A stretch of 64,000 nucleotides of DNA from NCBI RefSeq assembly GCF_017377795.1, contig NZ_JAFRDR010000002.1, forward strand, positions 558,001-622,000, given 5' to 3'. The position numbers and the translations under genes are program-made. The DNA comes from Williamsia soli. Its GTDB lineage: Bacteria; Actinomycetota; Actinomycetes; Mycobacteriales; Mycobacteriaceae. Positions 12,431 to 59,807 of the stretch are shown here, piece by piece (the first letter of the stretch is position 1; each line of letters begins with the position of its first letter). The notes under the pieces are model-generated. The model saw nothing but the letters and a program-made list of their open reading frames with translations, was not told the origin of the DNA and did no database searches.

Positions 12431-12535
12431 GGCGGAGACGGAGCGCAGCGGAGCTCGACCCGATTGCCGGAGACGGAGCGCAGCGGAGCTCGACCGGATT
12501 GGCGGAGACGGAGCGCAGCGGAGCTCGACTGAGTT
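12431..12535. repeat. Tandem array, three 35-bp units (dispersed family, array 1)
   Basis: Three copies begin at 12431, 12466 and 12501, with an exact 35-bp period. Each contains the core GGAGACGGAGCGCAGCGGAG followed by CTCGAC and a short variable AT-richer tail. The array fills most of the gap between divergent acuC and ideR. The same core occurs on the opposite strand at 39301-39427 inside dapF, with a 36-bp period. It is a dispersed repeat; the class is not one I recognise. Confidence 0.9.
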
Positions 12536-38410: not shown

Positions 38411-39430
38411 TTAAAGCCATCCTTCGTTGAGCATGCCCGCTCCGACCAGAATGGACGGGCCACGTAATTCGCTGTCGTCATCCCCGACCGTCACAATGAT
38501 CCGTCCGCCGGGGACGTCGACGATGATGGTCCCCGTGGTCCGGCCGATCGAGCGCAGCGCGGCTGCAGCTGCGGCGACGGTCCCCGTGCCACAACTGCGC
38601 GTCTCGCCGACCCCGCGCTCGTGCACTCGCATGAGTACCTCGCCGGTGACACCGTCGACTGTCGACGGCACCGGCGGCGTGATCAGTTCGATGTTGACGC
38701 CGGCCGGAAAGTCGCCGCGGTCGAAACTGATCGGGGCGGTGAGATCGACGTCCTCGAGATCGGCCGCGGTCATACCCTCGATGACACAGGCCAGGTGAGG
38801 ATTGCCCACGTCGACCGCTACCCCTGCCACGGTGCGGCCACCGACGGTCGCCTTGCTGTCCGTACCGAACACGACTTTGCCCATCGACACACTGACCTCT
38901 GCGTGTGTCCCGTTGCGCTCGTGCACCACCACCGGCCTCGCACCGGCACGTGATCCGACGACGAACTCGTTACCGGCGACCAGGTCGTGCGCCGCGAGGT
39001 AGTGGGCGAACACCCGGACCCCGTTTCCGCACATCTCCGCGATGGAACCGTCCCCGTTGCGGTAGTCCATGAACCAGTCGTTGTCGGAGATGCCGTCCGG
39101 CACCGCCACGAGCACGCCGGCGTCACGGAGTGCTCCCGCGGTCGCGACCCGCAACACTCCATCGGCACCGATCCCGCGGTGCCGGTCACACAGCGCGGAA
39201 ACGAACTCGGGGGTCAGGTCCAACGCCACACCGGGATCGGGCAACAGCACGAAGTCGTTCTGGGTGCCATGGCCCTTCACAAAATCGACACGCGCCGCCG
39301 CGCTGCGCTCCGTCCCCGGCCATTCTGGTCGAGCTCCGCTGCGCTCCGTCTCCGGCCACCCTGGTCGACCTCCGCTGCGCTCCGTCTCCGGCCACCCTGG
39401 TCGACCTCCGCTGCGCTCCGTCTCCGACAT
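38411..39430 (-). CDS. dapF: Diaminopimelate epimerase with repeat-encoded N-terminal extension
   Basis: About 339 aa against roughly 290 in M. tuberculosis. The conserved enzyme starts at residue 48 ([20 protein letters not shown]). Both catalytic cysteines are present: MCGNGVRVF and [15 protein letters not shown]. It interconverts LL- and meso-diaminopimelate for lysine and peptidoglycan. Residues 3-47 consist of three and a part copies of a 12-residue unit [12 protein letters not shown], translated from a 36-bp DNA repeat. No start codon lies between the repeats and the enzyme core, so the extension is probably made. A GTG at 39460, overlapping the miaA stop, is an alternative start. Confidence 0.9.
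39301..39427 (-). repeat. Tandem 36-bp units inside dapF (dispersed family, array 2)
   Basis: Units begin with CGCTGCGCTCCG (plus strand) at 39301, 39337, 39373 and 39409, an exact 36-bp period; the first is more diverged and the last is cut short. On the minus strand the core GGAGACGGAGCGCAGCGGAG is shared with the three-unit array at 12431-12535. A 36-bp period keeps the dapF reading frame, giving twelve residues per unit, while the intergenic array has 35. Confidence 0.9.
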
Positions 39431-39459
39431 CTTGTCCACGATACGCGCCCTACCGGGCA

Positions 39460-40371
39460 CTACCCGCCGCCACGACCCGCGGCCAGCAATGCCTGCCCGA
39501 CCACGTCAGGAGCCGACGCGTCGAGCCACCGCACCCTCGGGTCCCGACGAAACCACGAGCGCTGCCTGCGGACGTACCTGCGGGTTCCGATGAACGTCAA
39601 TTCTTCGGCTCGCGCGAGGTCATACTCCCCGTCCAGTGCTGCGATCGTCTGCGCGTAGCCGATCGCCCGGGCAGCGGTCACCCCTTCGCGCAACCCGACG
39701 TCCAGCAAGGCCCGGACCTCGTCCACCAGACCTCCGGAAAACATGGCCGATGTCCTGCGTGCAATCCGCTCGTCGAGATCGGTCGTGTCCCTGTCGAGCG
39801 CGATGATCGTTGTGTCCCATCGAGGTTCACCGATCGTCGGAGCTGACGCGGCGAACGGTCTGCCCGTGATCTCGACCACCTCGAGCGCGCGGACGATCCT
39901 GCGGCCGTCGGTATCGAGGATGTGCTGCGCGGCCTCGCGATCCACCTCGGCGAGGCGCCCGTGCAACACCGCGGGACCGAGCTGCGCGAGTTGCTCCTCG
40001 TAGCGGGCCCTGATCTCGGGATCGGTAGCCGGGAACTGCCAGTCGTCGAGCAACGCCTGGATGTACATCATCGATCCGCCGACAATCACCGGAGTCAGTC
40101 CGGCAGCGAGGATGCTCTCGACATCGGCGCGTGCCGCCTGTTGATAGCGGGCAACGGTCGCCGTCTCGGTCACCCCGAGCACGTCTATCTGGTGGTGTCG
40201 GACCCCACGGCGATCGGCGACGGGCGTCTTGGCCGTGCCGATGTCCATACCCCGGTACTGCTGCATCGCGTCCACGTTCACGATCTCGCCGCCGAGGTCG
40301 CTCGCCAGCGCGAGCGCAAGGTCTGACTTACCACTTGCCGTGGGTCCGATGACAGCGATCGGCGTCAGCAC
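39460..40371 (-). CDS. miaA: tRNA dimethylallyltransferase
   Basis: 303 aa. The P-loop is [20 protein letters not shown], and the substrate-binding region contains [15 protein letters not shown]. The GTG at 40371 is required by the family, since the P-loop must lie near the N-terminus. It attaches the dimethylallyl group to A37 of tRNAs reading UNN codons; MiaB, also in this window, adds the methylthio group. The start overlaps the stop of the upstream gene by 7 bp, and the stop borders dapF by 1 bp, so the three form an operon. Confidence 0.93.
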
Positions 40372-41105: not shown

Positions 41106-41286
41106 GGTAGCCGACTCTTCGATCTGATACCGCGCTGCACGATCAGAGCCACCTCATTGTCGATGAGTGTCCACGCCTACGGCCGTGACCTGCTTCAATG
41201 AGAGAGGCGATGGGCGCCACACCGGCGTCAGCGTCGGCAGACGAACGCAACTGGCAGCCGTGTCGCGCGGCAGGACAAGGAAGAAC

Positions 41287-42651
41287 ATGACCGAGCACAC
41301 CCCCGAACCTGCCGCAGACGCCACCCCGGTACCCGGCCCCAGGCCAGGACCACGGCCCGGCCCTCGACCCGGACCACGTCCGGGCCAGCACGCTCCACCC
41401 AAGGTGCATGCCCCTGCAGACGTCGTCAGGCCCGCGTCCGACCCGTCGAAGTTCGGCCGAATCGACGACGACGGCGCGGTGTGGCTCAGAAACTCCGAGG
41501 GCGAACACCAGATCGCGTCCTGGCAGGCAGGTACCGCCGCCGAGGGTCTCGCTCACTTCGGCCGCCGGTTCGACGATCTCGTCGTCGAGGTGGAATTGCT
41601 CGAGGAACGACTCGAGGCCGGCACCGGAGATCCGCGCAAGACGAAGATCGCAGCGGCCGCGTTGGTGGAGTCTCTCCCGACCGCCGCCGTGATCGGCGAC
41701 GTCGACGCGGTTGCAGCACGCCTGCAGACGATCATCGACGGCGCCGACGGCGCAGCCGAGAAGGTCAAACACGATCGTGACGAAGCACGCACCGCAGCCG
41801 TCGCGAGGAAAGAAGAGCTGGCCGCCGAAGCCGAGGAGATCGGCTCGGAGTCGACCCAGTGGAAGGTCGCGGGCGATCGCATGCGGGTGATCCTCGACGA
41901 GTGGAAGACGATCAAGGGCGTCGACCGTAAGACCGACGATCAGCTCTGGAAGAGATATTCGAAAGCGCGGGACACCTTCAACCGCAGGCGCGGCGCGCAC
42001 TTCGCCGAGATGGATCGCGAACGCGCGGGGGCACGTTCGCGCAAGGAAGAGCTCATCGCCGAGGCCGAGGCGCTGTCGGCGTCGACCGAATGGGCCGACA
42101 CCGCAGCCAAATTCCGTGGCCTCCTCACCCAGTGGAAGGCCGCAGGCCGCGCCCCCCGCGACCAGGACGATGCGCTGTGGGCCCGTTTCAAGGCGGCCCA
42201 GGACATTTTCTTCGGAGCCCGGAACGCCGCATCCTCCGAGCGGGACGCCGAGTTCGAGTCGAACGCCAAGGCGAAGGCCGAGTTGTTGACCCGGGCCGAG
42301 AAGTCGATCGATCCCGTAGCCGATCTGGACGCCGCCCGCCGCGAGTTCCGGTTGATCCGCGACCAGTGGGACGAGATCGGGAAGGTTCCGCGCGAGCAGA
42401 TGCACTCATTGGAGGCTCGCATCAAGGCGGTCGAGAAGCGGATCCGCGATGCCGAATCGGCACAGTGGCAACGCACCGATCCCGAGGTGAAGGCACGCGC
42501 GCAGCAGTTCGCCGACCGGGTCTCCCAGCTCGAAGATCAGGCGGCCAAGGCCGAGGCGAACGGCAAGGCCAAGGACGCCCGCAAATTACGCGAGCAGGCC
42601 GAGCAGTGGCGAGAGTGGGCCCGTGCGGCCGAGGGCGCAATCAGCGACTGA
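41287..42651 (+). CDS. DUF349 protein with proline-arginine-rich N-terminus
   Basis: 454 aa, the length of Rv2731 (450). Several DUF349 repeats form long helices ([80 protein letters not shown]), likely a coiled coil. The N-terminus has a PGPR unit repeated four times (about residues 16-32), unlike the rest. AAGGAAG is near the ATG at 41287. The protein is of unknown function, though some DUF349 proteins bind RNA or ribosomes. Lies divergent from Rv2728c-like and convergent with Rv2732c-like genes. Confidence 0.85.
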
Positions 42652-56999: not shown

Positions 57000-59807
57000 T
57001 CAGTCGTCGGGATCGCCGTCGGCATCGGAGCCGCCACCGTTGATCGAAGCGATGACGCCTGCCAGATCCTCTGGCTTCACCAGCACATCGCGCGCCTTCG
57101 ATCCTTCCGACGGCCCGACCACGCCCCGGGTCTCCATCAGGTCCATCAGCCGGCCGGCCTTGGCGAAGCCGACCCGGAGCTTGCGCTGAAGCATCGAGGT
57201 CGAGCCGAACTGGCTGGTCACCACGAGTTCGATCGCCTGCAGAAGATCGTCGAGGTCGCCTCCGATGTCGGAGTCGATGTCCTTCTTGTCGGACACCTTC
57301 TTGGCGGTCACACCTTCGGTGTAGTCGGGCTCGCTCTGGTCCTTGGCGAAGTCGACGACCGCCTGGATCTCCTCATCCGTGATGAAGGCACCCTGCATGC
57401 GGACCGGCTTGCTCGCGCCCATCGGCAGGAACAGGCCATCACCCATACCGATCAGCTTCTCCGCGCCGGGCTGATCGAGGATGACCCTGGAGTCGGTGAG
57501 CGATGACGTCGCAAATGCCAGGCGTGAGGGGACGTTGGTCTTGATCAGACCGGTCACCACATCGACCGAGGGTCGCTGCGTTGCCAACACGAGGTGGATA
57601 CCCGCGGCGCGGGCCTTCTGGGTGATTCGGACGATGGCGTCTTCGACGTCGCGCGGAGCGGTCATCATCAGGTCGGCGAGCTCGTCGACGATCGCAAGGA
57701 TGTACGGGTACGGCTTGTAGACCCGCTCGGAACCGAGCGGAGTGGTGATCTCGCCCGAGCGCACCTTCGCGTTGAAGTCATCGATGTGGCGGACCCGGGA
57801 TGACTTCATGTCCTGATAGCGCTGTTCCATCTCCTCGACCAGCCACGCCAGGGCGGCAGCAGCCTTCTTCGGCTGGGTGATGATAGGCGTGATGAGGTGC
57901 GGAATACCTTCGTACGGAGTCAGTTCCACCATCTTCGGGTCGATGAGGATCATCCTGACCTCATCGGGGGTGGCGCGGGTCAGCAGAGACACCAGCATCG
58001 AGTTGACGAAGCTGGACTTACCTGAGCCGGTGGAACCGGCGACGAGCAAGTGCGGCATCTTGGCGAGGTTCGCGGTGACGAAGTCCCCCTCGATGTCTTT
58101 ACCGAGACCGATGACCAGCGGGTGCTTGTCCTTCCGGGTCGAACTCGCGGTCAGTACATCCGCGAGGCGGACCATCTCACGGTCGCTGTTCGGCACCTCG
58201 ATACCCACAGCGGACTTGCCCGGGATTGGTGCGAGCAATCGCACGTTGTCGGTGGCGGCAGCGTAGGAGATGTTGCGCTGCAACGCAGTGATCTTCTCCA
58301 CCTTCACACCGGGTCCGAGTTCCACCTCATACCTGGTCACGGTCGGACCGCGCGTGAAACCCGTGACGGCGGCATCGATCTTGAACTGCTCGAGGACGGC
58401 CGAGATCCGATCGATCATCTCGTCGTTGGCCGCGCTGCCCAACTTCGGCGGATCGCCGTCGATCAGCAGACTCGCCGGAGGCAGTTTGTAGTCGCCCTCG
58501 ACTGCGCGGTCGACCACCAGAGCGTCATGGTCGCCGCCCAGGTCATCGTCGTCGTCGTCGACCGGGGCGGGCTTGGGCGTCGGTTTGGGCACCGGCCGCT
58601 TGCGCACCGGCTTTGCTCCGGCGGGTGGAGTGGTGATGGCGGCCGTCACCGCGGTCGGGCTGCCGTCGTCGTCGATGATCGGTTCGGTCAGGGCTTCCGA
58701 AGCGGTCACCGCACTCGCCTGACGGCGCCGCGGCGGTCTGCGCAACGCCTCCGATCCGGCAACGGTCGGGTTCTCGTCCGGCGGATAGTTGTCGTATGGA
58801 TTGCCGAAGGCGGTGTCTGCGTAACCGCCGTCGGCATCATCATCGTCATCGGGTTCTTCGTCGTCCCAATCACGATCGACACCGATTCCGAGGTAGGAAC
58901 CGACTACTGCTGTCAGTTCGCGGACCGTCAGACCCGACAGTAGCAACAGCCCAAACGCCATGCACAGCAGGAGGATCGGGACGGAAAGCCAGGCGGTGAG
59001 GCCGGCGGTGAGCGGGCCGCCCACCGCGAAACCGATGAAGCCCCCTGCACCCTGCCTGCCGTCGAAGTCGTTCGGCATGCCCGAGAAGATGTGAAACAGA
59101 CCGGGCAGCGGCAACCCGATCAGCAGCGCGGCACCGATGAAGCGGCCGCGGTCGCGCGGGTTCGGTGCATGCCGCATCAGCAAGAAGCCGATCACGATCA
59201 GTACGACCGGAACCAGGGCGGCAACGGATCCGAGTACCGCACGGGTGGCGGAGTCCACGAAGGCGCCTACCGGACCGCCGGCGTCGAACCAGATTGCTGC
59301 GATCATCACGATCGCGGCTGCGATCAGAACCAAGGCGATGCCATCTCTGCCCTGGGTGTGCTCGGGCCCGTGGTCGCCACCGGGTCGCGCGTCCCAGTCG
59401 CCGCCGGCCTGGTCCCAGCCGTCGTCGGTGTCGTACATACGCTCGTCGTAGTCCGGGTCGCCGCCTCGTGAACCGACCCGGGCGACCGAACCGACACCCT
59501 TGGCGAGCATTCCCCAGCCTGCCCCGACCCCGCTACCCACTACCTTGGCGACGGATCGGCGCTGGCGGACCGGGCGTGCCGGGGTCGCTGAGGTCTTCCT
59601 CGTCGCAGCTCGCGCGGTCGGAGACTTCTTCGCGCCCGCCTTCTTCACGCCGGACTTCTTTGCCGCGCTCTTCTTCGGTCCGGTGGCCGGCGAGGCCTTC
59701 TTCGGAGCCGACGTGCGCGGCGCAGCCTTCTTGGCGCCGGCTTTGGTTGCCTGCGCAGAACTTCTAGCCGACGCGCCAGAACGACGGGCGGTGGACTTGG
59801 TTGCCAT
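57000..59807 (-). CDS. ftsK: DNA translocase FtsK
   Basis: 935 aa. A lysine/alanine-rich N-terminus (about 95 residues) is followed by four membrane helices ([18 protein letters not shown] and others, about residues 130-290), an acidic/proline linker, and the RecA-like motor with [19 protein letters not shown] and [12 protein letters not shown]-like [18 protein letters not shown] winged-helix gamma domain lies at the C-terminus ([20 protein letters not shown]). It translocates and helps to resolve the chromosome at the septum. The ATG at 59807 has TAGGCT 7 nt upstream, possibly leaderless. Confidence 0.96.

Follow-up and report, generated by a model that had tools for sequence, protein, structure and literature searches.

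How does dapF, an essential gene, come to open with a tandem DNA repeat in Williamsia soli, and what has become of its normal start codon? Within the 64,000-nucleotide stretch of DNA analysed here (the window), the gene lies on the minus strand and encodes a DapF protein (Pfam DAP_epimerase, 9e-51; best solved relative 3fve). A preliminary description of this DNA had placed three complete and one partial 36-bp unit ahead of the conserved core. That layout is borne out by the minus-strand unit starts (39425, 39389 and 39353 for the complete units, 39317 for the partial one, spaced by 36), by TRF (period 36, 3.5 copies, 95% matches, window 39301-39426), and by the lag-36 identity of the first 150 nt, which reaches 86 of 90 positions where the best of 1000 Markov resamples gave 45. 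The features concerned, including an array of the same element between genes elsewhere in the window, are these.

38411-39430, minus strand: dapF, 339 codons plus stop, from the conserved ATG
39438-39443, minus strand: TATCGT, a -10 box of the TANNNT type (motif as in the excerpts used of PMC3898074), 7 nt before the ATG; probable leaderless promoter
39428-39430, minus strand: start codon ATG, corresponding by homology to that of relatives without the repeat
39399-39425, minus strand: 27-bp core, unit 1
39363-39389, minus strand: 27-bp core, unit 2
39327-39353, minus strand: 27-bp core, unit 3
39301-39317, minus strand: fourth unit, partial and diverged (GGGGACGGAGCGCAGCG)
39290-39430, minus strand: repeat-derived N-terminal tail of 47 codons, residues 1-44 predicted to be disordered (AlphaFold)
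12433-12529, plus strand: intergenic array of the same element, period 35 (TRF)

The DapF core begins with V48 at 39289, 47 codons past the ATG at 39430. No in-frame ATG, GTG or TTG lies between that ATG and the core, the next in-frame start being GTG codon 51, within the core itself; the earlier observation that no start codon separates the last unit from the core is correct, as is the 35-bp period that had been reported for the intergenic array. The window also contains a 69-codon ORF in another frame (39186-39395, minus strand) whose initial GTG lies in a repeat spacer, 8 nt behind a GGAGGT, and which is probably spurious. A 24-bp repeat at 41332-41386 (plus strand), coding for 10 residues near the start of a 494-codon ORF (41167-42651), is unrelated to the dapF element, and short 15-bp repeats at 57281-57317 and 59625-59677 possibly encode lysine/alanine-rich protein tails.

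In the preliminary description the normal start of dapF seemed to have been replaced, and it had proposed comparing dapF 5' ends among related strains. This comparison, made across nine genomes of the genus, argues against replacement, which we reject since the ancestral ATG is kept. Five of the nine have a short, repeat-free start, MF(A/G)RVDFVKGHG, while the other four, the window's genome included, have ATG-TCG followed by the repeat (protein MSET...), with the same ATG and the same upstream box ahead of it; the sequence upstream of the ATG can be aligned between carriers and repeat-free genomes. The codon that had not been taken for the old start is the ATG at 39430-39428, which lies inside the interval first described and opens the tail. 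Unit numbers differ among the carriers: the window has three complete units and one partial (47 residues ahead of the core V), G001 two and one truncated (35 residues), G007 three and a diverged stretch (50 residues), and G002 a single truncated unit (14 residues), the last of which (L369) is left out of the array counts below. Because the carriers form one clade in a tree built on dapF core DNA (support 99/99), a single insertion accounts for all four. Judged by this comparison, the old ATG is retained and the repeat inserted between it and the core. Two other starts were considered and not taken: a GTG 9 bases upstream of the ATG, which is missing in G007 and the five repeat-free genomes, and the GTG at 39460 that gives the longest ORF. 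Three further Williamsia-named records showing about 60% identity (L099, L102 and L112) fall outside this group, being repeat-free with other starts and a 6-nt gap. Another record, L096, is titled Kitasatospora arboriphila and has a Williamsia-type dapF and flank; it is probably mislabelled.

The box ahead of the ATG bears on how the gene might be translated. A TANNNT sequence stands exactly 7 nt ahead of the ATG in the seven nearest loci (L091-L097) as well as in the window, and one occurs 5-9 nt ahead of a dapF start in 71 of 79 loci, compared with 4.1% in shuffles that repeat the same search over start codons (L116, where a contig end cuts the gene, is absent from the 79). This is the placement, shortly before the start, that characterizes leaderless actinobacterial genes. 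According to the excerpts used of PMC3898074, mycobacterial promoters have TANNNT as their -10 motif, with its centre 7-12 bp ahead of mapped starts, and leaderless genes are numerous in Mycobacterium tuberculosis; dapF is not named in those excerpts. The dapF mRNA is thus probably leaderless, and we infer that translation begins at the old ATG. The earlier claim that translation passes through the repeat, giving a tail of about 47 residues, is very probably right.

One could instead suppose that the tail is never made, and that translation starts at GTG codon 51 with the repeat serving as 5' untranslated sequence. Such a reading could draw on the presence of this GTG in the window and in the three other carriers, and on the GGAG(GT) stretches of the repeat, which resemble ribosome sites. 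However, four of the five repeat-free relatives have GTC at the equivalent position and only one has GTG; the ATG, the box and the open frame are conserved in four species despite changing unit numbers; and, because AlphaFold places strand beta-1 of DapF at residues 48-54, initiation at codon 51 would truncate a strand of the core. We therefore regard an untranslated repeat as very improbable.

What the tail might do is a separate matter. In the AlphaFold model, based on 26 aligned sequences, the DapF core is predicted with high confidence and residues 1-44 have a pLDDT below 50. The simplest reading is a tolerated, unstructured passenger peptide. Alternatively, the tail could be adaptive, the number of units tuning the expression or stability of DapF, or the tail binding a partner. 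Its retention in four species would fit such a role, as would the close similarity of the first unit in three carriers, where the only differences are one Gly/Ala substitution and the third base of an arginine codon; early codons are also known to matter on leaderless mRNAs. Against this, the fourth carrier makes do with one truncated unit, 14 residues before the V, the spacer residues vary freely (GWP, GGL, VVG), and the same element turns up in numerous unrelated proteins, in antisense as well as in each of the three sense frames. An adaptive tail seems unlikely to us on balance, and a passenger peptide remains our preferred reading.

The dapF repeat belongs to a family dispersed through the genus. 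Its element is a 27-bp core, with the pattern GGAGACGNAGCGNAGCGGAGNTCGACC, followed by a spacer of mostly 6-9 bp. With up to two mismatches allowed, the pattern occurs in all nine genomes at 20-55 copies per genome (312 in total; none for the reversed control). Beyond the genus it appears as a single copy in each of 3 of 392 other sampled genomes of the family (at most one mismatch), and a shorter 22-base pattern matched in 3 of 95 others in all, one of these (G107) being an additional single match. The copies listed form 171 arrays, 168 in the genus and three in other genera, which group into 84 loci. Orthologous loci may differ in unit number, as with one unit at L201 and five at L289, and all spacers are identical in 20 of the 49 arrays that have two or more. 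The core pattern fixes 24 of its 27 positions, so part of the constancy of the core is due to the search itself; a less bound view comes from a 20-base search with two mismatches allowed anywhere (47 matches), in which 65 of 66 mismatched letters fall at core positions 8 and 13. Neither of the two varies within 74 of 89 multi-unit arrays, as against about 5 expected if units were mixed, and with the spacers this uniformity means that the arrays turn over locally. Between arrays, positions 8 and 13 may hold any base, with the other positions nearly fixed.

That confinement of mismatches to two positions, with uniformity inside arrays, would also suit a repeat that acts at the DNA or RNA level, as a binding site or a REP-like element, its place in dapF being incidental. 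Yet the core folds no better than shuffles (z-scores 0.2 to 0.7), for which reason we dropped an RNA hairpin reading; a search for RAYT transposases (Y1_Tnp) found none in the nine genomes, whereas a control search of 14 known genomes was positive in 5, including E. coli; and nearly half of the loci are coding according to the model set out below. We consider such an explanation improbable, if less so than the two discussed above. Mobilisation by a REP-type transposase is rejected for want of Y1_Tnp, and a phage or plasmid origin is rejected likewise, since a 124-bp array had no match in 72,556 plasmid and 50,697 phage records (E 1e-3).

A codon model for which 40 long ORFs from the window served as the training set, and whose score leaves out the arrays themselves, places 40 of the 84 loci inside genes, two of the 40 in other genera. 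The element is read in the sense orientation in 32 of them and in antisense in 8 (p = 2e-4); on inspection, its antisense frames never contain a stop. Of the 40, 13 sit no more than 20 codons from the start of the gene and 11 no more than 20 codons from its stop, which leaves 16 in the interior. The sense frames yield the peptides GD(x)A(x)RSST, ET(x)RSGARP (the dapF frame) and RRS(x)AELD. Scanning of 40 of the 45 representative host ORFs gave a Pfam family (E 1e-5) in 37 and none in three. The hosts include thiC (ThiC), metE (cobalamin-independent methionine synthase), hemA (glutamyl-tRNA reductase), a proteasome subunit, methylmalonyl-CoA mutase, an amino-acid kinase and a class I tRNA synthetase of the I/L/M/V type, which we take to be IleRS (ileS), with FtsW/RodA as an antisense host. 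The hosts of the single copies outside the genus are an S-adenosylhomocysteinase (L370) and a tRNA synthetase (L372, which was scanned, unlike its ortholog L371). Several dozen other Williamsia proteins besides DapF thus probably carry short repeat-made peptides. At L259, L282 and L361 the arrays lie close to the C-terminus encoded by a molybdopterin oxidoreductase gene, immediately ahead of the overlap between its stop and the start of the following gene, a placement reminiscent of MIRU sites. Five loci, L214 and L226 (called coding) and L221, L302 and L341 (not called coding), share one flank, the element probably having been copied with the gene; at L226 the core is in frame near the C-terminus of a DUF222 protein.

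Are these copies kept because they leave the reading frame unbroken? The preliminary description had seen a hint of selection in the 36-bp period at dapF, set against 35 bp in the intergenic array. At dapF alone the argument is weak, since no period is more frequent than 36 bp when all contexts are pooled (it makes up 62 of the 125 intervals among the first 100 loci), but it gains force once coding and intergenic loci are compared. Within ORFs, the interval is divisible by 3 in 62 of 63 cases (33, 36, 27 or 39, mainly 33 or 36 bp), as against 8 of 34 intergenic intervals, which are mostly 34 or 35 bp; arrays behind which the model's gene start lies ("open5", 34 of 55) and "partial" arrays (7 of 9) are intermediate. 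Counted per locus, and with 10 ambiguous loci set aside (five with all multiples of 3, five not), the frame is kept in 20 of 22 coding and 3 of 13 intergenic loci (Fisher test, 8e-5). The two coding exceptions are a locus whose called ORFs are on different strands (L225/L309/L338) and one where the gene stops inside the first unit (L260/L300). Since only an open frame can be called as an ORF, this division of the loci is not blind to the period. When the flanks alone were used, the frame is kept at 14 of the 17 loci whose two flanks code on the same strand, where one third would be expected (p = 5e-5); the three exceptions are no more than 16 codons away from a stop, and another gene follows. 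A second flank-only comparison set arrays entered by a gene (all multiples of 3 in 10 of 13) against the remaining ones (18 of 32) and showed no significant difference (p = 0.31). As far as the sequences indicate, in-frame copies seem to be kept because they leave the reading frame unbroken.

Repeat-free orthologs give some view of how copies may arrive. The tRNA synthetase gene is 36 bp longer in G004 than in the eight others; there, CTGTACC immediately precedes the core and recurs 2 bases after it. The FAA hydrolase gene of G007 exceeds those of the eight others by 33 bp. In G001, metE exceeds its close orthologs from G000 and G002 by 36 bp, and the nearby sequence of those two differs as well. 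At 10 of the 84 loci the flanks match over 4 nt or more at the distance expected, a number never reached in 500 shuffles, although array shrinkage could leave the same trace. This pattern suggests insertion with a short duplication.

The account that we favour, with a probability of roughly 85%, is as follows. A dispersed 27-bp element of this Williamsia group inserted just behind the dapF start codon in the ancestor of four species, and the insert then expanded and contracted as a 36-bp (12-codon) tandem unit. Translation would begin at the old ATG of an mRNA that is probably leaderless and continue through the repeat into the enzyme, with the tail as an unstructured, tolerated passenger. Intragenic copies persist where insertion and unit length keep the frame, dapF being one of about 40 such loci. 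The comparisons establish the kept ATG, the restriction of the insert to one clade, its varying unit number, the dispersed family and the keeping of the frame, whereas use of this start, a leaderless mRNA, absence of function and mobility are inferences. Against the account stand, besides the limits of the frame tests given above, the small number of loci (10 of 84) with flank duplications of the kind expected from transposition, and GTG codon 51, which could in principle start translation. A wider proposal is more tentative, and we hold it at somewhat less than even odds: a recently mobile, non-palindromic 27-bp element (33-36 bp as inserted) may enter genes mostly in sense, including the essential dapF and the class I tRNA synthetase gene, and then grow as an in-frame minisatellite, which would possibly make it the smallest protein-invading mobile element known.

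How does this compare with known systems? Rickettsia palindromic elements, according to the excerpts used of PMC2229807 and PMC10969869, are genus-restricted and lie in frame in many unrelated housekeeping genes as translated inserts; the former gives their size as 105-146 bp, with terminal inverted repeats and long stem-loops. The Williamsia element is like them in lying in frame in many unrelated protein genes (Pfam families in 37 of 40 hosts), but its core is only 27 bp, is not palindromic, has no stable fold and grows in tandem. MITEs such as ERIC and Correia (107 bp) are described in the excerpts of PMC2229807 as short, non-autonomous repeats with in-frame ORF fusions and some flank duplication. 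The Williamsia element is likewise short, fused in frame and in places flanked by what may be duplications, though it is much shorter and these are limited to 10 of 84 loci. No terminal inverted repeats or TA ends were seen on inspection, the ends GGAGACG and CTCGACC pairing only in the outer GG. REP sequences, of about 25 bp and with many dispersed copies, are similar in size and dispersal; unlike REP/RAYT systems, however, the Williamsia element is not palindromic, is often intragenic and has no Y1_Tnp in the genus. The MIRU-VNTR loci of Mycobacterium are tandem arrays between genes or at gene ends with lineage-specific copy number, and their unit size and sequence differ; many Williamsia copies, in contrast, lie inside genes or at N-termini. 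As in a minisatellite or VNTR, the units stand in tandem and their number varies between orthologous loci (dapF; L201 and L289). We found no description of the Williamsia repeat in the titles and first lines of open-licence papers, a search that does not by itself establish its absence from print.

In-frame repeats spread through housekeeping genes have been described mainly from Rickettsia and for some MITEs, going by the excerpts used of PMC2229807 and PMC10969869, and the present case is actinobacterial. To these it adds a very short core, tandem growth, repeat-free orthologs and intergenic copies, the last serving as an internal control for frame selection. In consequence, annotated gene starts and protein termini in Williamsia need to be treated with care.
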